This document shows, piece after piece, positions 6,938-26,919 of a stretch of 32,170 bases of DNA. Location: IMG/VR virus record IMGVR_UViG_3300012666_001037, positions 1 to 32,170 of that record; one strand, 5' to 3'. This DNA is from a virus. The notes beneath the pieces are model-generated. The model made no database searches. It saw nothing but the letters and a program-made list of their open reading frames with translations, and was not told where the DNA came from. Position 1 is the first letter of the stretch. Every line of letters starts with the position of its first letter. Made by a program: the position numbers and the translations under genes.

Positions 6938-6970
6938 AAAACATCATGCGAATTATGTGTGCCTCACCCC

Positions 6971-7576
6971 ATGAATAAATCCGTCCCTCAACACACCTAC
7001 GGCTTCGTCGATCAAGGCATTTTGCGTGGCTTGACCACAGACACCGGCGAATACGAACGCTGCGTGATCTTCGGCGTCACCTCGATTCCTTCACGCGCCC
7101 TGCACTTCTCGATCCTGTGCGAATCGGGAGCGCAGTGGGCACGCATACCGCTGCATAAGCTGCGGCACGAGCAGCCCACTTGCCAGAAAGTCCACGACCT
7201 TCCCCAACTGCAATCGTGGGACTGCCACGGCTGGGATTTCTGCGTCACGCAGTACGACTACCTCCGCGAGATGGGGTGCCAGTACCGGACGCGCGATGGG
7301 GCTATGATCCCCGCAAGCTACTGGTTTACCCTCGACCATACGGATAACGGTTACAGCCAATACCCGCCAGAGCACAAATGCTACCACCTGCTATTGTTGG
7401 AAGATGGCTCGGGCCAGATCGCAGCCCAGCCTAACAACCGCATTTTGTGGCGTGATGATAGCTTTGTGCGGCCCGACCCCGCGCAAATTTCGGAGTACCG
7501 AGTGATGCCAGAAACGACGTGGCACGCCGAACTAGGCCGCAATGCGGACCTCACAAAAGTAATCAACGAACCATGA
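6971..7576 (+). CDS. Unknown phage protein (PNNR motif)
   Basis: The protein has 201 residues from ATG 6971 (GTG 6959 is possible). It is rich in Tyr, Trp, His and Cys and looks like a folded, soluble protein. The C-terminal block HKCYHLLLLEDGSGQIAAQP followed by NNRILWRDDSFV resembles an uncharacterised domain I associate with phage accessory genes, but I know no function. Base composition is visibly less GC-rich than the helicase or terminase genes, suggesting a separate origin. The stop overlaps the next start (ATGA 7573-7576). Confidence 0.6.
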   Translation: MNKSVPQHTYGFVDQGILRGLTTDTGEYERCVIFGVTSIPSRALHFSILCESGAQWARIPLHKLRHEQPTCQKVHDLPQLQSWDCHGWDFCVTQYDYLREMGCQYRTRDGAMIPASYWFTLDHTDNGYSQYPPEHKCYHLLLLEDGSGQIAAQPNNRILWRDDSFVRPDPAQISEYRVMPETTWHAELGRNADLTKVINEP

Positions 7577-8573: not shown

Positions 8574-9124
8574 GCGCACCTACCGAGGCGCACCGGGAGG
8601 TGGCAGTTGCAATTTTTGCAATCGCCATGAAGTCGGCGCACCGCGGCGCACCTTTCCACGAGCCGTGCGCCCAACTCATCGCCGACAGCGAGGCGAGGGC
8701 GACCGCCGAACTCCGCGACTCTCTGGCGTTGGAGCAAGATATAGGCAACGCCGCCTGCGACGAGTTGCGCGGCGACGCTGACGAGTTGCGCGCCGACGTG
8801 GTGCGGCTCACCGCCCGCGCCGAACGCGCCGAGGCCGAGGTGGAGAGGTTGCGTTCTGGCCGCGACTGCGAGAAAAGACTGCGGAAGGACGCGGAAGAAC
8901 TAAGAGAGGATGCGATAGCTCGCGCCGAGAAAGCCGAGGACCAACTCCGCGCCGAGCTAATTACGCGTGCCGGAGAAATACAAACACTCACCGAAGAACT
9001 CGCCGCCGAGCGGGCGCGGTTGGATTACCTCCTCCAATGGGATGTCACGTTTCACGACCGTGCCGACATCGATGCAGAGATCGGCTATGCGCAGCGCAAA
9101 AAGAGCACACCCACTCTCCCGTGA
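8570..9124 (+). CDS. Coiled-coil protein, paralogue 2
   Basis: The protein has 184 residues, starting at the ATG of an ATGA overlap. An N-terminal helical region (AHREVAVAIFAIAMKSAHRG) precedes a long coiled coil at about 45-165 (ELRADVVRLTARAERAEAEV, EELAAERARLDYLL). It shares sequence with the preceding gene at protein and DNA level. The stop overlaps the terminase start as GTGA. Position directly before TerL is where a small terminase often lies, but the coiled coil shows no DNA-binding domain. Confidence 0.6.
   Translation: MSAPTEAHREVAVAIFAIAMKSAHRGAPFHEPCAQLIADSEARATAELRDSLALEQDIGNAACDELRGDADELRADVVRLTARAERAEAEVERLRSGRDCEKRLRKDAEELREDAIARAEKAEDQLRAELITRAGEIQTLTEELAAERARLDYLLQWDVTFHDRADIDAEIGYAQRKKSTPTLP
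8812..8835 (+). repeat. 24-nt direct repeat, copy in paralogue 2
   Basis: Identical to 8183-8206 in the preceding gene. Confidence 0.85.
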
Positions 9125-10866
9125 TCTGGACTCCGCATCCCGTTTTCCCCGTACCGTCGCGCGCGCAGGCGAGCGCATTGGTGGCTGCCGCCGGGCCCGA
9201 GGAGGCCAAGCGCCGCCTCTTGGAGATTTGGGAAAAGCGCGAGCACGTCATCCGTATCGAGAAAACGGATCCGTTGCGCGTGCCGCATATCTACGAGCCG
9301 GAGCCGTTCAAGCGCGCGCGCGCCCTCCTCGCGGATTTCGATGAGCTCGCCGTCCTCGGGCAAAACCGCTCCGGCAAGACCATCTTCACACAAAAATACG
9401 TGATGGAGCAGCTCGCCAACCGGCCGAATCAGGCGTGGGCCTACTTCCACCAAACCGCCGAGACCAGTATCCGCCAGCAGCAGGAGATCGCTTACCGCTT
9501 CATCCCCGCCGAGTGGAAGCATCTCGGGCGGCAGGGCGATCGGATCTATGTCCAGTATTCGGAGGCCACCGGATTCTCTAATCAAAAGTTTATCTTCCCC
9601 AACGGATCCCGCGCCTACTTCTTCAACTACAAACAGGACTTGTCGATTTTGGAGGGCGATGAGCTCGACGGCGTGTTGTTCGATGAGCTCGTGCCTTTGC
9701 CGTTTTTGGAGACGGTGCGCTTTCGCCGTGGCCGCGGCCGCACGCTGAAGGTCTTGGTCTCCTTCACGCCGAAGACGGGCTACACCGCTACCGTGGGCTC
9801 GCTCATCGAGGGCGGGGAGATCGTCGAGACGCTCGCGGCCAATCCCGCGCTCTTGGCGCCGGATGTCGTACACGTGCGCGGGTGCCCGGCGGGGCATATG
9901 CCCTACGTGCTCAAGTGCCGGCGGCCCGGCTCGCGCGTGCTGTGGTTTCACTGGGGGGCCAATCCCTACGGCGCCCACGCCGAGATCGCCGGGGCCGTGG
10001 CGGGCGAGGCGAGTAACAAGATCAAGATGCGTTGTTATGGCTGGGTCGATAAGGTCGCCGGCAATGCCTTCCCGCGCTATGGCAAGGCGCACAAGCTCAC
10101 GCGCGCGCAGTTTGCGGCCGTCGCCGCCAAGGGTGGCACGCGCTACGTGTACTCGGATCCCGGCTTTGAGAAGAATTGGTTTATGCTCTGGATTTTGGTC
10201 ACGCCGGCTGGCCACCGCATCGTGTATCGGGAGTGGCCGGATCGCCGCGCGTATGATGAGTGGGCGCTCTCCCCGAGCGAGGCCACGGAGAACGATGGCG
10301 CGCGCAAGTGGGATTGGCGCCCGGGCCCGGCGCAGCGCACCGATTCCGGCGGCGGCGCCAACCACTACAAGTCCCTCATCATGGAGGCCGAGGGTCAGGT
10401 GTGGCGCGCCTCGGAGACGCGGTGGGATAGCACCGCGGCCGAGGTGATCCAGCGCCGTCTCATGGATCCCCGGCTGGGCGGGCAAAACGTGCCCAACGTC
10501 AACGAGGGCACGAGCATCATCGATCTCATGGCCAAGGCGGATCCTGACGGCGGCGGGCGCCCCATGCCGCCGCAGTATTGGGAGGAGGCCAGCGCGTGCG
10601 GGGTGGGCGAGGGGATCCAGCTCATCAACATGGCGCTCTACTACGACGAGACTAAGCCCATCTCGATCGAGAATTGCCCGAAGCTCTACGTGGTCGAGGA
10701 TTTGGAGCAGCTCGATCTGGCGCTCGCGCAATACGTCGCCCCGCCGGCCACGAGTGAGCGCAACGCGCTCAAGGATCCGATCGACTGCCTGCGCTACGCG
10801 ATGAAGGACGATTTTGGCCACGTCGATGCCGCGCTTCTGCGGGGTCGCCGCGGCACCTACTACTAA
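9121..10866 (+). CDS. Terminase large subunit (packaging ATPase-nuclease)
   Basis: The protein has 581 residues from GTG 9121, chosen because the GTGA overlap with the preceding stop matches the coupling used across this region. The frame continues upstream to 9037, but that segment is Arg/Cys-rich and unlike a terminase. The ATPase domain has Walker A GQNRSGKT at 80-87 and Walker B LDGVLFDE at 182-189, whose final Glu is catalytic. The C-terminal RNase H-like nuclease has an acidic motif in YVYSDPG (about 341-347) and a late DPIDCLRYAMKDD near 552. It cuts concatemeric DNA and drives it through the portal, whose gene follows one small gene later. Confidence 0.93.
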   Translation: MIWTPHPVFPVPSRAQASALVAAAGPEEAKRRLLEIWEKREHVIRIEKTDPLRVPHIYEPEPFKRARALLADFDELAVLGQNRSGKTIFTQKYVMEQLANRPNQAWAYFHQTAETSIRQQQEIAYRFIPAEWKHLGRQGDRIYVQYSEATGFSNQKFIFPNGSRAYFFNYKQDLSILEGDELDGVLFDELVPLPFLETVRFRRGRGRTLKVLVSFTPKTGYTATVGSLIEGGEIVETLAANPALLAPDVVHVRGCPAGHMPYVLKCRRPGSRVLWFHWGANPYGAHAEIAGAVAGEASNKIKMRCYGWVDKVAGNAFPRYGKAHKLTRAQFAAVAAKGGTRYVYSDPGFEKNWFMLWILVTPAGHRIVYREWPDRRAYDEWALSPSEATENDGARKWDWRPGPAQRTDSGGGANHYKSLIMEAEGQVWRASETRWDSTAAEVIQRRLMDPRLGGQNVPNVNEGTSIIDLMAKADPDGGGRPMPPQYWEEASACGVGEGIQLINMALYYDETKPISIENCPKLYVVEDLEQLDLALAQYVAPPATSERNALKDPIDCLRYAMKDDFGHVDAALLRGRRGTYY

Positions 10867-10869
10867 ATT

Positions 10870-11076
10870 ATGAATGCTCCCGCCACTTCTGTCGTGCTTC
10901 CGGCCAAGGTGTATCTCCGGCGCAAGGAGGTCGAGTCCGTCGTCGGTGGCTGGCGGCAGCTCGCGGCTTTGGAGGCGGCGGGGCGGCTGCGGCGCATCAT
11001 CCTCCCGGGCTACACGCGCGCCCACTATGCCCGCGCGGAATTGCAGGCCGTCTTGCTCGCGCTTTATGGGCAATAG
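10870..11076 (+). CDS. Small HTH-like protein between terminase and portal
   Basis: The protein has 68 residues. Residues 13-62 (VYLRRKEVESVVGGWRQLAA, then a wing RRIILPGYTRAHYARAELQA) resemble a small MerR/AlpA-type winged DNA-binding domain. The start ATG follows the terminase stop by three bases with AT-rich sequence (AAATT) instead of a Shine-Dalgarno. A role in packaging or in late regulation is possible, but nothing in the sequence decides. Confidence 0.55.
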   Translation: MNAPATSVVLPAKVYLRRKEVESVVGGWRQLAALEAAGRLRRIILPGYTRAHYARAELQAVLLALYGQ

Positions 11077-11118
11077 ACACCTTGACGCTCCTTTTCCCCA
11101 GCGTGAATTGCTCGGGCC

Positions 11119-13305
11119 ATGAAATCGTATCTTGAAGAGAGCCCCGCGGAAGAGCTTGCCGAGGCGCGTCGTGATTTGGAGCGGACCGTGGATGATTGCC
11201 TCGGCGTGTGGATGCGGCAGGCGCGGGCGACTGAGCTCCGGCACAATGTGTGGGAAGGGCAGAGCCAAGACGGTCGCAAGCACTCGGATTCGGGTGAGTC
11301 GGTCTTGCCGTTTGAGGGCTCGGCGGATTCGCGTATTCCCCTTCTCGATACGATTATCAACGATAAGGTGGCGATGGCCCAACAAGCCTTTTGGCGGGCC
11401 GAGGTGCAGGCCTCGCCCATCGAGCCCGGCGATAGCGCCCAAGCCGCGAGCGTCTCCACGCTCCTGCGGTGGTTGCGCCGCGTGCCGATGCGCGAGGAGC
11501 TCCGCACCGAGATCGAACTCTCCGCGCAGTATATGTACGGCGACGATCCCGGCATCGCCGTCGTGGCCGTGGATTGGTTGCAGGACACCAAGCTCGTGCG
11601 CACGGTGCTGACGTTTGACGAAGCCGCGGCCATGTATGCCAGCGGCGCCGCCACCCCGGCCGAGGCTCCGCCGGAGATGTTGGAGCCGGAGATGCTGGCC
11701 GATTTCATCGATCTCATGCAGAACCGGGAGCGGGAGCGCGAGGCGCTCGCGTGGATCGCCGTCGCCTTCCCTTCGACGAGCAAGCGCATTCACCGCCAGA
11801 TCTTGCGTGGCTTGAGCCGGGATGGCGCGGCCGATGTGCCGATGCCCAAGATCCGGGAAAACCGGCCCACGATCACGAGCCTGCGCTACGGCCGGGAGGT
11901 CTTCTTTCCGGTGGGCACGGCGGATATCCAGCGGGCCCGCCGGATCCATCGTGTCGAGTGGCTCAACGAGGAGGAGTTGTATGAGCGCGTAGTCACGCAA
12001 GGGTGGGATGCCGACCACGTGGATGAGATTTGCAAACGCGGCAAGGGGCAGTCGCTCATTCAAAGCTACGGTGAGACGCGCGCCAACCAGAGCGCCGTAT
12101 CCTTCTCGGGCCCGGGCTTGGAGATCGATGAGACGCAACACCTCTTTGAGGTCATTTGGAGCTACGAGCGCCGCACGGATGAGCTCGGCATCGCCGGGAT
12201 CTACGTCGTCGTGTGGAATTGCGCGGTCAAAGAGGGCTGGATGTGGGCGGGGCTGTGCGATTTCGACCACGGCCGGTATCCGTTTGTCATGCGCACCCGG
12301 GAGCGCCTCGGCCGGCAGGTCACGGATTCGCGCGGCATCTCGCGCGCCCTCCCGACGCATCAGAACGAGATCAAGGTGCAGCGTGACGCGCGCTCCAACA
12401 ATACGCAGCTCATCGCCTCCCCGCCCATGAAGCGCAAGCTCATGGCGGGAGCCGCCGAGCTCATCCTCGGGCCCGCGTCCGATGTGCCCGTGCAGAAGAT
12501 CGATGATTTTGAGCTCATTTCCTATCCCGCGCTCACCGCCGCCTCGATGGAGATGGAGTCCACCACGAAGAACGAGGCCTTTCACTACTCCGGTATCCTC
12601 ACCAAGGAGGCGGATCCCAACCGGGTCTTTATGCTCGCGCAGGCCGAGGCGGATAATTTCAACGCCCTCTGGTGCGGCGTCTTTGACCAAGTGCTCGCGC
12701 TCTGCCAGCAATACTACTCGCCCACCGAGCTCGCGCTCATCACCGGGGGCGACGATGCCCCGCTGGGCCTCGGGCCCGATGACATCGCCGGCCGGTGGAA
12801 TATCGCCCTCGAAATCGATGCGCGCGATCTCAACATGGATTTCGTAATCAAGAAGCTCGATACCTACAACAAGCTCCTCTCGCTGGATCCGCAGGGCGTG
12901 ATCGACCGCACGCAGGCGCCGGCGTGGGGTGCGGCCGCGCTCTTCCCGGGCATGGCCGGCCGCCTCATTCAGCCGATGGAGAAGGTCACGCAACGCCTCA
13001 TCGACGAGGAGGAGAGCAATGTGGCCAAAATGGCGATCGGCATGGAGCCGCGGATGCCCGAGGATGGGATCGACGCGCCGCAAACCCGTTTGCAGGCGAT
13101 GCAGGGTGCTGTCGGCAAGAGCCCGCGGCTCTCGGCGCAATGGTCTGGCGATCCCGAGTTTCGCGCGCTCCTGGAGAATCGGCAAAAGTTCCTCATGCAA
13201 CAGCTCACGCAGGAGCAAAACAAGGTCGTCGGCCGGCTCGGCACCGCGCCCTTGCAAGCCGATCCGATGGCCGGCCTCCCGGCCGCTCCCGGCCCGAGCG
13301 CGTAG
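11119..13305 (+). CDS. Portal protein
   Basis: The protein has 728 residues, in the upper range for portals of podovirus type. The N-terminal part has the typical opening VWEGQSQDGRKH ... PFEGSADSRIPLLDTIINDK near 45-80. A central part has GDDPGIAVVAVDWLQDTKLV and LNEEELYERVV, and a late helical crown region ends in a Gln-rich helix (LLENRQKFLMQQLTQEQNKV). It would form the dodecameric DNA channel at one capsid vertex and dock the terminase. Its place between terminase and scaffold/capsid genes strongly supports this. Assigned by pattern and position, not by alignment. Confidence 0.85.
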   Translation: MKSYLEESPAEELAEARRDLERTVDDCLGVWMRQARATELRHNVWEGQSQDGRKHSDSGESVLPFEGSADSRIPLLDTIINDKVAMAQQAFWRAEVQASPIEPGDSAQAASVSTLLRWLRRVPMREELRTEIELSAQYMYGDDPGIAVVAVDWLQDTKLVRTVLTFDEAAAMYASGAATPAEAPPEMLEPEMLADFIDLMQNREREREALAWIAVAFPSTSKRIHRQILRGLSRDGAADVPMPKIRENRPTITSLRYGREVFFPVGTADIQRARRIHRVEWLNEEELYERVVTQGWDADHVDEICKRGKGQSLIQSYGETRANQSAVSFSGPGLEIDETQHLFEVIWSYERRTDELGIAGIYVVVWNCAVKEGWMWAGLCDFDHGRYPFVMRTRERLGRQVTDSRGISRALPTHQNEIKVQRDARSNNTQLIASPPMKRKLMAGAAELILGPASDVPVQKIDDFELISYPALTAASMEMESTTKNEAFHYSGILTKEADPNRVFMLAQAEADNFNALWCGVFDQVLALCQQYYSPTELALITGGDDAPLGLGPDDIAGRWNIALEIDARDLNMDFVIKKLDTYNKLLSLDPQGVIDRTQAPAWGAAALFPGMAGRLIQPMEKVTQRLIDEEESNVAKMAIGMEPRMPEDGIDAPQTRLQAMQGAVGKSPRLSAQWSGDPEFRALLENRQKFLMQQLTQEQNKVVGRLGTAPLQADPMAGLPAAPGPSA

Positions 13306-13317
13306 CCTCCGCCCTTT

Positions 13318-13584
13318 ATGAATGCCTCCCGCCTCGTCTACTATCCGGCCTCGCCCGGGCAACTGAACCCGGCAGCCGTCTCCGAGGAATTTGCCAAGCT
13401 CGGGCGCAATGATGCGCTCTGGCAGGCCTTCATGCAGGTTTTGCAAGAGCGTTTGGCCAATGCCACCGTGGATGCGGCCAACGGCGAGCCCTCCGCGGCC
13501 GGCCGTTTGCAAGAGCTCCTCGGCTTGCAGCAACAGTTTTCCGCGATTCGCCACGGCGAGCCGAGGAAGCCCGCGCGGGCCTAA
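13318..13584 (+). CDS. Small virion-region protein
   Basis: The protein has 88 residues. It is helical (AVSEEFAKLGRNDALWQAFM; ERLANATVDAANGE; GRLQELLGLQQQF). Short proteins with this layout commonly follow portal genes in podovirus-like genomes, but their role is unknown. The start is preceded by CCCTTT rather than a Shine-Dalgarno. Confidence 0.6.
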   Translation: MNASRLVYYPASPGQLNPAAVSEEFAKLGRNDALWQAFMQVLQERLANATVDAANGEPSAAGRLQELLGLQQQFSAIRHGEPRKPARA

Positions 13585-20049: not shown

Positions 20050-20193
20050 ATGACCAAAGACGAACACAAATCCGCGATCGTGCAGCAACTCCAACAGCAG
20101 TCCTTGAACCTGCTGGTGGACTCACTCGCGGCTGCGCTGGCGGAAATTGAACAGCTCAAGGCCGCTGCAAACGCTGATAAGCCCGCGTCGTGA
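20050..20193 (+). CDS. Short coiled-coil protein
   Basis: The protein has 47 residues. It is a single amphipathic helix rich in Gln and Leu (KSAIVQQLQQQSLNLLVDSL; LAEIEQLKAAAN). It ends in a GTGA overlap with the next gene, which supports it as real despite its length. Function unknown. Confidence 0.5.
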   Translation: MTKDEHKSAIVQQLQQQSLNLLVDSLAAALAEIEQLKAAANADKPAS

Positions 20194-20666
20194 ACCTCAA
20201 ACGCTCACTTCTTCTCGCGGTGCTCGCGCTCGGCCTTGTGGTCGTGCTGGGCCTTGCGTTGAGGAGTGAGCGGGTGCTCACGGCGGGACTGCCGCTGCGG
20301 ATCGTGGCCAAGACGCAGGACGAGGCGCGGACGCTGGCAGGGCTCGGGGCCGTGGCGGTGCTCGGGACGGGCTCGATGGCTCCCTACATCGCAGCCGCGC
20401 CCGCGGGCACCGACCCGCTGGCGACGGTGATGGCCTACGCGGTGCCGAGCACAACTCTGCGCTACGGCGACATCACGACGGGCGCGCTCGTGATCTACTC
20501 AATCAACTACGTCGCGGGCTCCAACACGATGCACCAAGCCGCCCAGCTTGACGCTGGCGGCTGGATTATGACCGGTCTCGGAAACAAAGCCTACGAAAAC
20601 AAGGTGCGCGTGACGAAAGAGAACTTCGTCGGCATCGTTGCGCGGGTGTATGTCTGGACGCCGTAA
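20190..20666 (+). CDS. Membrane-anchored signal-peptidase-like protein
   Basis: The protein has 158 residues from GTG 20190. Residues 6-24 form a hydrophobic anchor. GTGSMAPYI at 59-67 matches the nucleophile box of S24/S26 peptidases (GxSMxP), giving Ser62. Further on, RYGDITTGALVIY fits the GD-I-x-V-x-Y strand, and MHQAAQLDAGGWIMTG at 114-129 matches the H-R...GGW...GD block with His115 where ER-type signal peptidases have His. The usual GDN...D end is altered to GNKAYEN, so activity is uncertain. Position in the lysis cluster suggests it acts at the membrane, for example on a holin, spanin or virion protein, but this is inference. Confidence 0.55.
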   Translation: MNLKRSLLLAVLALGLVVVLGLALRSERVLTAGLPLRIVAKTQDEARTLAGLGAVAVLGTGSMAPYIAAAPAGTDPLATVMAYAVPSTTLRYGDITTGALVIYSINYVAGSNTMHQAAQLDAGGWIMTGLGNKAYENKVRVTKENFVGIVARVYVWTP

Positions 20667-20668
20667 CC

Positions 20669-20815
20669 ATGGACGCGCTCGAAATCCTAGTCAAAGGGTG
20701 GCCGATTTTCTTGGGCATGATAACCCTGATTATCGTGCTCTCGAAGCTCGACCTGCGCGTGGCAGTTCTTGAGGAAAAGATGAAATCGCTCTTCGACCTC
20801 TTTAATAAAAAATGA
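20669..20815 (+). CDS. Short one-helix membrane protein, holin-like
   Basis: The protein has 48 residues: a short amphipathic start, a membrane segment at about 11-25 (WPIFLGMITLIIVLS) and a charged helical tail (DLRVAVLEEKMKSLFDLF). The size and layout resemble small holin or XhlA-type lysis proteins. It overlaps the next gene as ATGA. Base use is AT-rich for this window. Confidence 0.5.
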   Translation: MDALEILVKGWPIFLGMITLIIVLSKLDLRVAVLEEKMKSLFDLFNKK

Positions 20816-21219
20816 ACATCCTCGATTTGCTTGGCAACGCTCTCGGTGGTGGTGCGCTCGGTGTGATTCTGCGCATCGGCAACGGCTTTTTCGAGGAATA
20901 CAAAGCGGGCAAAGACCACGCACGGAAGCTGGAAGAGGCCAAGACGATGGCGACGATCGCAGCCGACGCCGCAGCGTGGGCAGCGTTCACCGCGAGCCAG
21001 CAGGCCGCGACCGTGCCGAGCAACGTCGCGCCGTGGTGCGCTCACATCATCACGCTCTTCCGGCCCTTCATCACTTTGACTCTGGTCGGTGTCGCGACCG
21101 TGGTGTATTTCTACTCAGTCGGCACAGATCGTTCGTCTATGGCGGAACAGGTAAATTTCGCGGCATTTAATTCTGTGGGATGGTGGTTCGGAGATCGAAT
21201 GGCGCGAAAATCAAAATGA
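20812..21219 (+). CDS. Holin-like protein, GTA/3TM type
   Basis: The protein has 135 residues. An N-terminal Gly-rich hydrophobic stretch (about 5-22), a charged helix, then a strong membrane segment at 76-102 (IITLFRPFITLTLVGVATVV) and a C-terminal NSVGWWFGDRM helix. The order helix, FRPxITLTLVG segment and terminal GWWFGDR is typical of the 3TM holins of phages and gene-transfer agents. It would form the inner-membrane lesions that time lysis. Neighbouring short membrane genes support a lysis cassette. Confidence 0.65.
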   Translation: MNILDLLGNALGGGALGVILRIGNGFFEEYKAGKDHARKLEEAKTMATIAADAAAWAAFTASQQAATVPSNVAPWCAHIITLFRPFITLTLVGVATVVYFYSVGTDRSSMAEQVNFAAFNSVGWWFGDRMARKSK

Positions 21220-21371
21220 ACGCTGACAACATCCGCGCTACCCTAACCGCCGCAACGCCTGCCGCTGCAATGATCTCGCTGTCGCAAGTCAACGAGGTCG
21301 CTGCACTCGTCGGCACACTCCTTGGCATTGCGTTTCTGCTATGGCGCTGGCGGCGCGAGGCCCGCCGCTGA
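21216..21371 (+). CDS. Short membrane protein of the lysis cluster
   Basis: The protein has 51 residues, with one membrane helix at about 25-43 (VNEVAALVGTLLGIAFLLW) followed by a basic end (RWRREARR). The basic inner end suggests an N-out, C-in helix. It may be an antiholin or a second holin. It overlaps the upstream holin-like gene as ATGA. Confidence 0.5.
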   Translation: MNADNIRATLTAATPAAAMISLSQVNEVAALVGTLLGIAFLLWRWRREARR

Positions 21372-21483: not shown

Positions 21484-24400
21484 ATGTCACTGCAACGCAC
21501 CCGCCCCAACGAGAATCGCACGCCGGACTTCATCGAGCTCCCCGATGGCCGCAAGCGGCTCGTGCGCTACTTTGATTTGCCGAATGGCACGAATCTCACC
21601 GATGCGCTCATCGAGCCTTACGGCACCCTCGATGTGGGGCCGGCCACGGGCACTACGGCCAGCTTTGCGGGGCTGCGGCTCGTCGATCAACGGCTACTCA
21701 AGATCAACGAGGTTAGTTTCTGGCAGAAGACCTTTGAAGAGCTCCCGGCTACGGCCGAGCTCCAAGTAGGCGGGGCGACCACGGGCAATACCACGAGCAA
21801 GCTCCCCGATGGCCGCACGAGCTACGAGGCGGAGTTTTTGCAATTGGTGGCCGGCACCTACGTGCCCGGCACCGTGGGCACGACCACGGCCCCCGGCGAT
21901 GCCACGGCCTATCTGCAAAAGGAGGAAGCCACCAGCGATGGCTCCCTGCGCCGCATCAAGCGTGTCTACGTGAGCGCCGGGGTGATCCAAATCAACGACG
22001 AAACGAAGAACAACGGCGCGCTGCTCCTGCGCACAATCGTCTCGGTCAAGACCGTCCCCACCACGCCGACCGGCTACACGCTCATCTCGACCCGCGATGA
22101 TCCCTCCGGCGGGCTAGTGGTCTACACCTACACCTACGCTAAGGGCAGCGGCGAGATCTCTCGCAGCATCGACTACTCGCAGTCGATCAACGGGGGCACC
22201 ACCGGCCTCACGCGCACGACGATTCGCTACCTCGTGGCACCATCCTTTCCGATGCTGCCGGCCACATTGTCGAGCGCAGTCAACGTCGGGCGGGACTACG
22301 CCGAGCAAGACGGGCACGGCATCTGGACGACCACGTGGGCGAGCGGCACGGGCACCGTTTCAACGCAGGACGAGACCAAAAACAATGGCGCGCTCCTCAC
22401 GCGCACCATTCGCGCCCTCGGCAGCGCACCGGCTACGCCGTCCGGTTACACCCCGATCTCGACGGACGAGGCTTTCCAAGACGGGTTTGCCGTCTACACA
22501 TCCACGTTTGCCAACGGCACAGGGGAAATCTCCCGCAGTGTGGATTTCGCGCAATCGGACGATCAGGGCGTGACGGGCGTCACGCGCACCACGATCCGCT
22601 ATCTGACGACGGCCTCGGTCAGCACCGATCCGACCACGCTCTCCGGCTCGGTCAAAATGAGTCAGGACATGGCGGAGCAAAATGGACACCGCATTTGGAC
22701 TATCGGCTACGCGAAAGGCACGGGCACCGTCGTGCAAGACGTGGACATCAAGGAAGGTGGCGCGCTTACGCTTTATCACCGCGTAGGGCTCAACGCCATC
22801 CCCTCGGCACCCAGCGGCGGCAACGGGGCGCTGACCACCATCATCGTCACCAACGGCGGCTCGGGCTACACCAGTGTCCCTACGGTCGGAATCACCGGCG
22901 GGGGCGGTTCCGGGGCCACGGCTACGGCGGTTATTTCTGGCGGCGCCATTACCGCGCTCACGGTTTCGACCAGTGGCAGCGGCTACACGAGCGCGCCGAC
23001 CGTGGCGTTTTCCGGCGGCGGGGGCAGTGGTGGTGCTGCGACGGCCGTGCTGGCAACGCGAGCCGTCTCCTCCATCGCAGTCGGCGCGGCCGGCAGTGGC
23101 TACACGGCGGCACCCACGGTCACGTTGACCAGCGGCAGTGGCACCGGTGGCGCGGCGGCAGCGGTCCTGACAGCGACCACGCTCGCCTCGATTGCGCTCA
23201 CCAACGCCGGCACGGGTTACACGAGTGCACCCACAGTCTCGATCACGGGCGGTGGCGGCTCGGGGGCAACGGCGACGGTCACGCTCCTAGCTGGCGGCGT
23301 CACCGGCCTGACGCTCACCAACGCGGGCTCGGGCTACACGAGCGCGCCCACGCTGAGTTTTAGCGGCGGGGGCGGCAGTGGCGCGACGGCTACGGCGGCG
23401 CTCACCGGCACCAGCGTGGCCTCGGCCAGCGTGAGCGCAGGAGGCAGCGGCTACACGAGCGCGCCCACCGTCAGCGTCTCAGGCGGGGGCGGATCCGCAG
23501 GTGCGCTCACGGCGGTGCTCACCGCGACCACGTTGGCGAGTATCACGGTGACGGCGGCTGGCAACGGCTACACGAGCGCCCCCACGGTCTCGATCACGGG
23601 CGGGGGTGGATCCGGCGGCACGGCGACCGCCGTCCTCACCGGGCGCACAGTCGCCAGCATCACCGTGACGAATGCGGGCAGTGGCTACACCACGGTGCCC
23701 ACCGTGAGCTTTGCCGGTGGCGGGGGGACTGGCGCGGCGGCTACGGTGAGTCTCGCGGGCACGACGCTGGCCTCGGCGACGTTGGTCGCGGCGGGCTCGG
23801 GTTACACGAGCGCGCCCACGGTGGCGCTCTCGGGTGGTGGCGGATCGAGTGGAGCGGTGACGGCGGTGTTGACGACGACGACGATTGCCTCAATTGCGCT
23901 CACCAACGCGGGCAACAACTTCACGTCCGTTCCCGCCGTTTCGTTTTCCGGTGGCGGTGGCACGGGCGCAGCGGCTACGGTCAACATATTGAGCGGTGTA
24001 GGGATTAACATGACGAACAGAGGCAGCGGATATTATCCAGATGGAAATTACACGTTCACTGATTTTACAGGAGGAGGCGGTAGCGGATTGATTGCAGTCG
24101 CTACTATCGCTGGAGGCGAATTCATCGGATTTGATTTTGACCCCGTTTCGTTTCCCACCGCATCCCCCGGTTCAGGTTACAGCTCCGCGCCGACAGTAAA
24201 CTTTGCGGTATTTGATGCCATTTATCACGGAACCGGAGCAGCCGCAACCGCTGTTGTAGGGGGCGGCGTTTCCTACGTAAGAGTTACCGCTGCCGGCAGT
24301 GGCTATACAACAACCCCGACTGTGGCGTTTTCCGGTGGTGGAGGCAGCGGTGCCGCCGCTTTTGCTTTGATAACTCCCGGCCCTATTTATCAAATCATCA

Positions 24401-26919
24401 TCACTAATCCCGGGACCGGCTACACGTCGGCACCCACAGTCACAATAAGCGGTGGCGGCGGAAGCGGAGCCACGGCTTCAGCGCACTTAATTCCGGTGTC
24501 GCTTAGTTCCCTGACACTGACCAACGCCGGCTCGGCATACACGTCCACGCCAACGGTTTCGTTTTCAGGCGGCGGCGGCACGGGTGCCACAGCCACGGCG
24601 ACCCTCACCGCCACCACCCTCGCCAGCCTCACGCTCACCAATGCCGGCACCGGCTACACGAGCGCGCCCACCCTCTCCTTTTCGTATGGAGGGGGCAGCG
24701 GAGCCACGGGCACCACTGCAATCACCGCCACCACGGTCGCGAGCATCGCCGTGACTGCGGCGGGCAGCGGCTACACGACTGCGCCTACGGTAAGTTTTGC
24801 GGGCGGCGGCGGAGGCAGTGGTGCAGCGGCTACTTCGGCACTCACCGCGGGCACCGTGGCAAGTGTGACCGTGACGGGCGCCGGTAGCGGCTACACGTCT
24901 GCTCCCAGCATTAGTTTCAGCGGCGGCGGTGGCAACGATGCCGCGGCTACGAGCACCATCACGGCCACGAGTGTAGCGAGCTTCACCGTGACCAATGGCG
25001 GCAGCGGCTACACCAGTACGCCGACACTTTCTCTTTCCGGCGGTGGCGGCAGTGGTGCCTCCGGCAATGCCGTGCTCACGGGCACGACGATTGCCTCGCT
25101 CACCGTAGGTGCCGCGGGCTCTGGTTATACCTCGGTGCCCAGCCTAGTCTTCACGGGCGGCGGGGGCACGGGTGCGGCGGGATCGGTCTCGACCGCCGGC
25201 GTCACGCTCACGGGCTTCACCGTCACGGCCGCCGGTTCCGGCTACACCTCCACGCCGACGGTTGCGCTCTCGGGTGGCGGTGGCACCGGGGCGATCGGCA
25301 CGCCCACGCTTACCGGCACGACTATTGCGAGTTTTACCGTCACCAGCGCCGGCAGCGGGTACACGTCTGCACCCACGCTCTCGCTCACCGGCGGAGGCGG
25401 CGGCAGCGGCGCAAGCGGCACCGTCACGCTCACCGCGGTCGGCCTAGCCAGCCTCACGATCACCAACGCAGGGAGCGGCTACACGTCCGCGCCCACCTTA
25501 GCGTTTTCCGGCGGCGGGGGCACGGGCGCGGCGGCCACGGCCACCATCGCTACGTCTTCAATCCTTGCGGTCACGATCACGGCGGCTGGCACGGGCTTCA
25601 CTTCGGCGCCCACGGTCGGATTCTCCGGCGGCGGGGGCACGGGCGCGGCGGCGGTGGCGCCGGCCGGCGTAGGCCTAGTCACGCTCATCTCAGCCAACCA
25701 ACGCAAGGAAGCTGGATATGACGTCTACGACTACACTTGGGCGCTGGGCGTGGGCGAAATCGAAGCCAGCACGCGCTACAATCAATCGTCCGATGGGGGC
25801 GCGACGGGTGTTACCATTACCACCTACCGCACCATTACCTCGTTGAGCGCGAGCGATCCGACGACCGCACCCGCCAACACCGTCAAGATTTCAAGCACCT
25901 ACACCCTCCAAGACGGCTATAAAGTCTGGACGGTCGTCTACGCCAAAGGCACAGGCGAAGTCTCCCGCAGCATCGACTATTCGCAATCTAGCGACGAGGG
26001 CGCGACCGGCCTCAAGCGCACCACCATCCGCTACCTCAGCGCTTCGACGCAGGCCACCCGACTCCCGGCCACGCTTACCGGCTCGGTCTGCGTCGGCGAA
26101 GACTACGCAGAGCAAGACGGGCATCGCGTCTGGACGACCAATTGGGCCAAAGGCACAGGCGTCGTCTCCGAACGCTACCAGCAACGCCCCGGCGGCTTGC
26201 GCATCGCGACGTGGGTATCCCTTGGCCAAGGCTACGACGACACGTATATGCTCCCTACGGGCGTGCTCCTCGCCAAAGACAGCGACGACCGCGATGGCCA
26301 CACCGTCTGGACGGTCTCGACCATGCAGCTTGCCGCCGGCGGCGCAGATCCCACGAGCGGCACGGCGCACAGCTTCACGACCATGCACCCCTTCCGCTAT
26401 CCCGGCAGGGCCAAGGCGATCACGACCACCATCACGGCCGGCTCGGCAAAGTTGTGCTTCGATGTCTACAAGAGCCCGCCGGTGGATTTGCTCGTGTTGG
26501 CCACCGTCACGATCACCTACCAAACGTCGAACGCGCTCGGCGCGGTCAGCCCTACGCTTTGGAATCCCGATAATTGGGCGACGATCATTGCAAAGTATTG
26601 GGGTTGGAATGCCTACCCAAAGGCTGTCGTGGAGACCCTGACGGGCTACCGCTCCGTGAGCGACACGCCGATCACGTTTAACGGCGGTGCGTTGGGCGGT
26701 GAACAAACGTGCCTCGGAGACCGCGTTTACGGCTATGGCTCCCTCACGCCTTACTCACTCACGGTCTTCGGCGGGCCAGCAAATCCCGATAGTACTGACT
26801 ACTCGCTCGCGGCTGAAATCGATGCCGAGCCCGCATTCGTCGCCTACGGCGGCACCAAGTACTACCGCAGGACGATCATCTCCGCCAACATTCCCGCGCA
26901 GACCGCGCTACCCGTATGA
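21484..26919 (+). CDS. Giant repeat-rich structural protein (1811 residues)
   Basis: The N-terminal 170 residues look like a virion-attachment region. A repeat of about 124 residues starts at 172 and 296, each with an ETKNNGAL start, a GEISRS[IV]D[YF]SQS-type core and a DYAEQDGH-type end. A third copy starts at about 419 but is interrupted at about 452 by some 24 copies of a 39-residue Gly/Ser/Thr repeat (core GSGYTSAPTVSFSGGGG), then resumes at about 1395 with VTLISANQRKEAGYDVYDYT and ends GEISRSIDYSQS-like further on. The C-terminal 300 residues have no repeats. A beta-solenoid host-contact or fibre protein is inferred. It is flanked by the lysis cluster and by small virion-like genes. Confidence 0.7.
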   Translation: MSLQRTRPNENRTPDFIELPDGRKRLVRYFDLPNGTNLTDALIEPYGTLDVGPATGTTASFAGLRLVDQRLLKINEVSFWQKTFEELPATAELQVGGATTGNTTSKLPDGRTSYEAEFLQLVAGTYVPGTVGTTTAPGDATAYLQKEEATSDGSLRRIKRVYVSAGVIQINDETKNNGALLLRTIVSVKTVPTTPTGYTLISTRDDPSGGLVVYTYTYAKGSGEISRSIDYSQSINGGTTGLTRTTIRYLVAPSFPMLPATLSSAVNVGRDYAEQDGHGIWTTTWASGTGTVSTQDETKNNGALLTRTIRALGSAPATPSGYTPISTDEAFQDGFAVYTSTFANGTGEISRSVDFAQSDDQGVTGVTRTTIRYLTTASVSTDPTTLSGSVKMSQDMAEQNGHRIWTIGYAKGTGTVVQDVDIKEGGALTLYHRVGLNAIPSAPSGGNGALTTIIVTNGGSGYTSVPTVGITGGGGSGATATAVISGGAITALTVSTSGSGYTSAPTVAFSGGGGSGGAATAVLATRAVSSIAVGAAGSGYTAAPTVTLTSGSGTGGAAAAVLTATTLASIALTNAGTGYTSAPTVSITGGGGSGATATVTLLAGGVTGLTLTNAGSGYTSAPTLSFSGGGGSGATATAALTGTSVASASVSAGGSGYTSAPTVSVSGGGGSAGALTAVLTATTLASITVTAAGNGYTSAPTVSITGGGGSGGTATAVLTGRTVASITVTNAGSGYTTVPTVSFAGGGGTGAAATVSLAGTTLASATLVAAGSGYTSAPTVALSGGGGSSGAVTAVLTTTTIASIALTNAGNNFTSVPAVSFSGGGGTGAAATVNILSGVGINMTNRGSGYYPDGNYTFTDFTGGGGSGLIAVATIAGGEFIGFDFDPVSFPTASPGSGYSSAPTVNFAVFDAIYHGTGAAATAVVGGGVSYVRVTAAGSGYTTTPTVAFSGGGGSGAAAFALITPGPIYQIIITNPGTGYTSAPTVTISGGGGSGATASAHLIPVSLSSLTLTNAGSAYTSTPTVSFSGGGGTGATATATLTATTLASLTLTNAGTGYTSAPTLSFSYGGGSGATGTTAITATTVASIAVTAAGSGYTTAPTVSFAGGGGGSGAAATSALTAGTVASVTVTGAGSGYTSAPSISFSGGGGNDAAATSTITATSVASFTVTNGGSGYTSTPTLSLSGGGGSGASGNAVLTGTTIASLTVGAAGSGYTSVPSLVFTGGGGTGAAGSVSTAGVTLTGFTVTAAGSGYTSTPTVALSGGGGTGAIGTPTLTGTTIASFTVTSAGSGYTSAPTLSLTGGGGGSGASGTVTLTAVGLASLTITNAGSGYTSAPTLAFSGGGGTGAAATATIATSSILAVTITAAGTGFTSAPTVGFSGGGGTGAAAVAPAGVGLVTLISANQRKEAGYDVYDYTWALGVGEIEASTRYNQSSDGGATGVTITTYRTITSLSASDPTTAPANTVKISSTYTLQDGYKVWTVVYAKGTGEVSRSIDYSQSSDEGATGLKRTTIRYLSASTQATRLPATLTGSVCVGEDYAEQDGHRVWTTNWAKGTGVVSERYQQRPGGLRIATWVSLGQGYDDTYMLPTGVLLAKDSDDRDGHTVWTVSTMQLAAGGADPTSGTAHSFTTMHPFRYPGRAKAITTTITAGSAKLCFDVYKSPPVDLLVLATVTITYQTSNALGAVSPTLWNPDNWATIIAKYWGWNAYPKAVVETLTGYRSVSDTPITFNGGALGGEQTCLGDRVYGYGSLTPYSLTVFGGPANPDSTDYSLAAEIDAEPAFVAYGGTKYYRRTIISANIPAQTALPV
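22858..25665 (+). repeat. Array of about 24 x 117-nt glycine-rich repeats
   Basis: Unit length is 39 codons, with the phase marked by GSGYT at the start of each unit. Copies 1-9 and 14-24 are close in sequence; copies 10-13 (about 23985-24400) are degenerate, variable in length and less GC-rich. Confidence 0.85.

Follow-up and report, generated by a model that had tools for sequence, protein, structure and literature searches.

A virus-borne relative of ER/archaeal-type signal peptidases with a conserved serine–histidine pair and an altered acidic box

The DNA analysed here over its whole length (the window), a virus record 32,170 bases long, encodes a small protein for which we regard a signal-peptidase-like fold and descent as very likely. 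Together with its relatives the protein forms a family that is probably a virus-borne, active variant of the signal peptidases of the ER/archaeal type (S26B). The overall reading towards which we lean is that of a phage membrane-anchored serine endopeptidase cleaving signal or anchor segments in exported proteins. An earlier note on this DNA had assigned the gene to the S24/S26 peptidases, with a Ser/His pair in place of Ser/Lys, and both points are supported by residue conservation, by profile–profile comparison with S26B and by structure comparison. The features discussed are collected in Table 1.

Table 1. Positions in the window of the peptidase gene, its sequence motifs and the neighbouring genes of the cassette.
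Feature	Position	Strand	Evidence and remarks
47-aa small protein upstream	20050..20193	+	stop overlaps peptidase start (GTGA); relatives upstream of peptidase elsewhere
Peptidase gene, S26B-like phage protein	20190..20666	+	158 aa, GTG start; ORF list, family, dN/dS
N-terminal membrane helix, residues 3-32	20196..20285	+	model secondary structure; hydropathy
GTGSMAPYI, residues 59-67, box B-like	20364..20390	+	Ser62 (20373-20375) as predicted nucleophile
GALVIY, residues 98-103, corresponding to S26B GDVITF	20481..20498	+	A4 and hhalign with S26B
His115, at the position of the histidine in S26B THR	20532..20534	+	His in 38/38 rows; aligned by hhalign
GWIMTGLGNKAYE, residues 124-136, box E counterpart	20559..20597	+	Leu130 for GDN Asp; Glu136 (20595-20597) as distal acid
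48-aa protein	20669..20815	+	one membrane helix predicted in relatives; 2 bases past peptidase stop; stop overlaps next start (ATGA)
135-aa protein, PHROG 6637 (unknown function), possibly holin-like	20812..21219	+	phrog_6637 E 5.4e-6
51-aa hydrophobic protein, weakly holin-like	21216..21371	+	ATGA overlap; phrog_920 holin E 0.012; Phage_holin_2_4 E 0.033, below cut-off

The reading frame of the peptidase was confirmed, and the pattern G[ST]GSMxPx[ILV] occurs a single time in the six-frame translation of the whole window. Comparisons with 16 of the 37 relatives in a 38-row family alignment (A4) gave dN/dS ratios of 0.15 (against L009), 0.10 (L025), 0.11 (L026) and 0.24 to 0.74 (13 further relatives), all of which are rough because dS was near or above 1 in most comparisons, being saturated at about 1.9-2.1 with L025 and L026. 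The frame is taken to be real, because dN/dS is low against the closest relatives and family members exist in 63 other IMG/VR contigs; a chance open frame in GC-rich DNA was rejected on these same two grounds.

The 63 contigs, some of them near duplicates, emerged from iterated searches of IMG/VR, which yielded 15, 35, 47, 61 and 62 loci in successive rounds. When the six most divergent members served as queries, 50 loci were returned, many from the main family, and one contig was new (L162). Alignment A4 consists of the window protein and 37 of 61 loci picked for diversity; L144 and L162 are absent from it. All members of the phage family detected in this analysis come from virus contigs, unlike those of S26B. 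When 84,980 species genomes were scanned twice with exact peptide patterns, no relatives were recovered among 64 and 50 candidates, respectively; because the patterns were exact, cellular relatives could have been missed. A tblastn search of a phage collection with the proteins of the window, L080 and L072 found no match. The L117 protein matched ten records of that collection (E 3 to 8), the top two being S26/S24-type proteins (L122 and L123) and the remaining eight genes of tape-measure type, and the L119 protein matched one, that of L123 (E 0.1). The L122 protein (923-1372) lies on a scaffold labelled as a gut phage, between an ABC-transporter-like gene and a short gene that by eye resembles PqqD, possibly in a peptide-modification cluster. 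Within the family itself, the window gene and that of L011 (5001-5468) are mosaic, DNA identity dropping from about 93% in codons 1-80 to about 51% in codons 81-120; the low-identity stretch, between Ser62 and the region past His115, is perhaps a specificity region.

Kinship to the signal peptidases is carried first by sequence profiles. Aligned by hhalign with a profile of 11 ER/archaeal-type enzymes from one gut phage scaffold and ten plasmids (A5), the 38 members of A4 reached a probability of 96.4% (E 1.4e-9) over 79 columns, with GTGSMAP (of GTGSMAPYI) paired with SGSMEP, MHQ with THR, and GLxN..E with GDxN..D. A repeat run gave 96.7%, while 100 column shuffles of A5 gave at most 2.2% and reversed profiles 0.2-0.3%. 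Removal of the six most divergent members left 93.2% with 32 of the 38, and a reduction to 30 of the 38 left 92.3%. Results against single sequences were mixed: 2.9-93.2% for S26B enzymes, 94.1% for the S24/S26-type protein L122 and 1.1% for Escherichia coli LepB. Searches of the profile libraries were silent on this kinship. No S26 family was among the Pfam and NCBIfam matches at E ≤ 1, and neither the peptidase nor its relatives yielded an E below 0.03 when scanned with Pfam, NCBIfam and PHROG, none of the matches being to S26. TIGR02228 and PF10502 matched nothing in the window at E ≤ 1; as positive controls, the two models matched 13 and 14 of 14 control genomes, respectively. Profile searches of PDB sequences, including one with the A4 profile, found no signal peptidase. 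The link to S26 thus rests on profile comparison and structure, since none of the S26 models is matched directly by the protein of the window, and such genes are likely to have been left as 'hypothetical' because they have no significant Pfam, NCBIfam or PHROG match.

The structural evidence comes from an AlphaFold model built from A4 (mean pLDDT 88.9, pTM 0.77); an earlier prediction from 11 close sequences had been poor (pLDDT 44.8). When the Foldseek matches in the PDB were re-ranked by structural comparison, rows 1-38 were all signal peptidases, SipA, LexA, UmuD and lambda repressor, with Z from 7.7 to 4.9, and unrelated rows began at 4.4. All values of Z are below 8, where the tool warns of possibly just a common arrangement, and the families are tied, so that the fold alone cannot separate S26B from S26A or S24. 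The original Foldseek ranking of PDB entries was weak, with Hfq as the best match (E 0.18), mostly Hfq among the best 50 and one signal peptidase, at rank 8. In BFVD the best match, and the sole one below 0.001, was A0A6J5PXA0 (probability 1.00, E 5.5e-4), a protein of length 148 from an uncultured Caudovirales phage that carries the name Sigpep_I_arch and, compared by structure match only, shows TM scores of 0.53/0.56 and 18% identity. Phage signal peptidases of the ER/archaeal type have therefore been annotated before. Neither the present family nor its altered active site has a significant counterpart in the libraries searched, but a phage protein named as a signal peptidase is already public. 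Among the open-licence articles listed, none concerned a phage-encoded signal peptidase by its title or shown abstract.

Comparison with the individual branches of the clan places the protein closest to S26B (Sec11, SipW; TIGR02228). It shares with these enzymes an N-terminal anchor, a G-S-M-x-P box with the catalytic serine, a histidine at the base position and a GxxN...acid box of equal spacing, in addition to the profile alignment and to the structural rows 7p2q (Z 6.8) and 7p2p (Z 6.3). It differs from them in most members by an extra stretch past the serine box, as well as in the acidic box discussed below. Likeness to the bacterial enzymes of S26A is one of fold class (Z 5.5-6.9 for the rows of LepB, 5.7-6.0 for those of SpsB), whereas the family has histidine where the general base of S26A is lysine, and the single LepB sequence was hardly aligned by hhalign. 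A Ser/Lys dyad is given for the bacterial type I enzymes in PMC2913515. The soluble S24 proteins, which use Ser/Lys as well, call for separate consideration, because a cytoplasmic self-cleaving regulator similar to LexA, CI or UmuD would share the fold: the LexA, UmuD and lambda CI rows (Z 4.9-7.0) are level with those of the signal peptidases. The N-terminal part of the phage protein is, however, a single hydrophobic helix and no DNA-binding domain, family members bear either this membrane helix or a lipobox, and the base is His, not Lys. We rejected such a regulator on account of the membrane anchor and the histidine, and regard it as highly improbable.

Conservation in A4 singles out the residues expected of a working enzyme. 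Ser62 is kept in 37 of the 37 rows that cover it and His115, contained in MHQAAQLDAGGW, in 38 of 38, so that the lack of conservation among homologues which the earlier note had named as grounds for refutation was not observed; Gly124 and Gly129 are present in 38 of 38 rows each and Asn132 in 37 of 38. The conservation of these residues stands out against a mean column identity of 46% in A4. The same note had described the GDN...D end as altered. This holds for the Asp of GDN, the place of which (position 130) is taken by Leu in 32 of the 38 rows, Ile in 5 and Tyr in 1, and never by Asp, but the later acidic position is retained: position 136, six residues further on and corresponding to the second catalytic acid, is Glu in 31 rows and Asp in 7. 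In the 11 S26B sequences of A5, which follow the pattern G-D-x-N-x-x-x-D, the first Asp of GDN is invariant and the two Asp are mostly six apart, a spacing equal to that of Leu130 and Glu136.

Published accounts give two standards by which this altered box can be read. For eukaryotic SEC11, S56, H96, D116 and D122 are all said to be essential, the two acids being six residues apart (PMC6850559), whereas for archaeal signal peptidases a single member of the conserved pair of Asp is described as essential (PMC2913515). Ser52, His122 and Asp148 are listed as crucial in the table of a further paper, where they are printed in the row for FlaK with a citation of a signal peptidase mutagenesis study (PMC4343526). 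Measured against the eukaryotic enzyme, the phage family lacks one essential residue, and Glu in place of Asp is unusual. The dispensable acid in archaeal signal peptidase mutagenesis is reportedly Asp142. Judged from the alignments, the family would seem to have lost the Asp that archaeal enzymes can apparently spare and to have kept an acid at the site where one is needed, which favours activity, as evidence short of proof. We consider it likely that the protein is an active protease.

The alternative of an inactive relative, also raised in the earlier note, deserves attention in the form of a membrane-bound chaperone or scaffold comparable to SipA of Streptococcus pyogenes, a protein titled as a signal peptidase homologue for pilus polymerisation, which is without a Ser/Lys pair. 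SipA provides the best structural row of all (Z 7.7, 2.8 Å, 89 residues), and the loss of the GDN Asp from every row of A4 would fit a dead enzyme. Unlike SipA, the phage family keeps both Ser and His, and their conservation together with that of an acid at position 136 in all 38 rows would be unexpected without catalysis. Because of this conservation an inactive relative is the less likely reading, and we think a scaffolding role of this kind improbable.

The N-terminal anchor proposed earlier is borne out by the helix predicted in the model and by a hydrophobic N-terminus throughout the family, the hydropathy of the 17 N-terminal residues exceeding 1.6 in 36 of the 36 members of the 38-row alignment that are longer than 125 aa. 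In a few divergent members the membrane helix has been swapped for a lipoprotein-type signal (L119 7869-8327, L120 4312-4755, L121 5828-6223 and L162 5956-6432). L119, L120 and L121 have a lipobox with its Cys at residue 16 to 18, and L162 has FYGC at the matching place; LIGC in L080 lies inside the helix and was taken as chance. A lipid anchor places the domain outside the cytoplasm, and for this reason a periplasmic domain is inferred for the family as a whole. The suggestion that the peptidase might process a virion protein is disfavoured by this topology, since virions are assembled in the cytoplasm and the domain should face the periplasm.

With its catalytic site and anchor considered together, the phage protein would act as a serine endopeptidase of the signal-peptidase clan whose N-terminal helix sits in the inner membrane, with the beta-sheet catalytic domain turned towards the periplasm. 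By homology, Ser62 would be the nucleophile and His115 the general base, and Glu136 would take the place of the catalytic Asp. The enzyme is presumably made, probably late, from a translationally coupled cassette together with small membrane proteins, and it would clip signal or anchor segments of exported proteins, of phage or host, at the membrane surface. Such clipping would probably prepare lysis within this scheme, although we put forward only tentatively that the substrates belong to lysis or envelope remodelling.

The gene neighbourhood bears on this last step. The earlier note had spoken of a lysis cluster with holin-like genes, and the small proteins do form a coupled cassette with the peptidase gene (Table 1), but holin models matched the window neighbours only below cut-off or at E ≥ 0.0075, and the endolysin families PF00959, PF01510 and PF01464 had no match in the window. 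In 25 records these three families were matched in 1, 0 and 4 cases, respectively (three of the four above cut-off), separated from the peptidase gene by about 14 to 28 kb. Two of these phages encode lytic enzymes (L195 and L196) with an N-terminal stretch that appears hydrophobic by eye, at distances of about 14 and 24 kb; these are candidate substrates only. In 27 of 44 loci, one or more of the three genes that follow the peptidase in the window could be found (2 kb away in L105), and in the other 17 none of them was, two of these 17 (L112 and L121) being cut off just past the peptidase gene. PHROG 6637 was also matched by proteins encoded beside the peptidase or in its vicinity in L060, L105 and the divergent L119, and weakly in L071 (E 0.004). 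Two relatives of the PHROG 6637 protein match GTA_holin_3TM below cut-off (E 0.02-0.07). The PHROG 6637 gene of the window (20812-21219) thus has counterparts that accompany the peptidase in several divergent phages, and represents a candidate holin-type family.

Other loci have different partners. In 9 of 61 loci (L072, L073, L074, L081, L104, L117, L118, L120 and L144) the next gene encodes a lipoprotein-like product with a predicted membrane segment, and in L075, L101, L105 and L114 the downstream gene is fibre-like by eye. In this survey of downstream genes the ORF picked automatically was wrong or too short in at least seven loci (the window, L029, L059, L079, L080, L098 and L099). Five of the lipoprotein-like proteins encoded directly downstream of the peptidase (L072 10316-11044, L074 10384-11028, L104 8444-9040, L117 8284-8928 and L120 4755-5534) have membrane segments in their second half and no family match above cut-off; we take them to resemble single-protein spanins. 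When L080 is compared with the window, the 47-aa upstream gene and two downstream genes are 64.5-81.6% identical and the next upstream gene 45%, whereas the peptidase is only 35% identical. The L080 gene (9257-9721) has probably been exchanged in place, and such comparisons suggest that the peptidase module is exchanged on its own, which speaks against a single constant partner.

These neighbourhoods can be set against two narrower or different views of the substrate. An enzyme specific to its own cassette, whose substrate is the adjacent 48-, 135- or 51-aa membrane protein and which sets the timing of lysis, would account for the coupled overlaps between the genes, for the recurrence of downstream genes in more than half of the 44 loci and for a PHROG 6637 relative downstream of even the divergent L119 copy. 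The peptidase may process a lysis protein, as the earlier note proposed, but the variable downstream partners and the divergence of the L080 peptidase from its well-conserved surroundings count against an adjacent substrate, and we rate this narrower version as rather doubtful. The variable neighbours and the mosaic exchange within the gene would equally suit an independent module, such as an accessory gene directed at host envelope proteins that brings about receptor loss or superinfection exclusion, or supplements the host signal peptidase. In most loci examined, however, the gene is flanked on one side by fibre-like genes or others of the structural region and on the other by genes for small membrane proteins; an accessory role appears to us unlikely as well.

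Phage lysis is usually described in terms of holin, endolysin and spanin, and processing of the signal-peptidase type by a phage-encoded enzyme is not known to belong to this picture. If active, the phage peptidase would allow phages to liberate or activate exported proteins with an enzyme of their own. It would further demonstrate that the signal-peptidase clan can do without the GDN Asp, a point relevant to the eukaryotic need for two acids and the archaeal need for one. A more far-reaching proposal is speculative, and we hold it to be improbable as a whole: that a virus-only branch of S26B, with a Ser-His-Glu site and the GDN Asp gone, provides many different phages, probably of diderm bacteria, with periplasmic control over the maturation of lysis proteins, and can switch between helix and lipid anchor.

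Elsewhere in the window, genes match the families of DnaB-like helicase, head scaffolding and major head proteins, and the portal family weakly. An ORF of 1811 aa at 21484-26919 consists mostly of repeats resembling GSGYTSAPTVSxSGGGGSGAAAT and has no Pfam match at E ≤ 0.01. On the minus strand, an open frame of 1489 aa (9085-13554) runs antisense to genes of 609 and 728 aa, and probably results from the GC-richness of the coding sequence. By eye, the window (6959-7576) and the divergent L119 phage (9226-9855) apparently have in common a gene of unknown function, about 205 aa in length.
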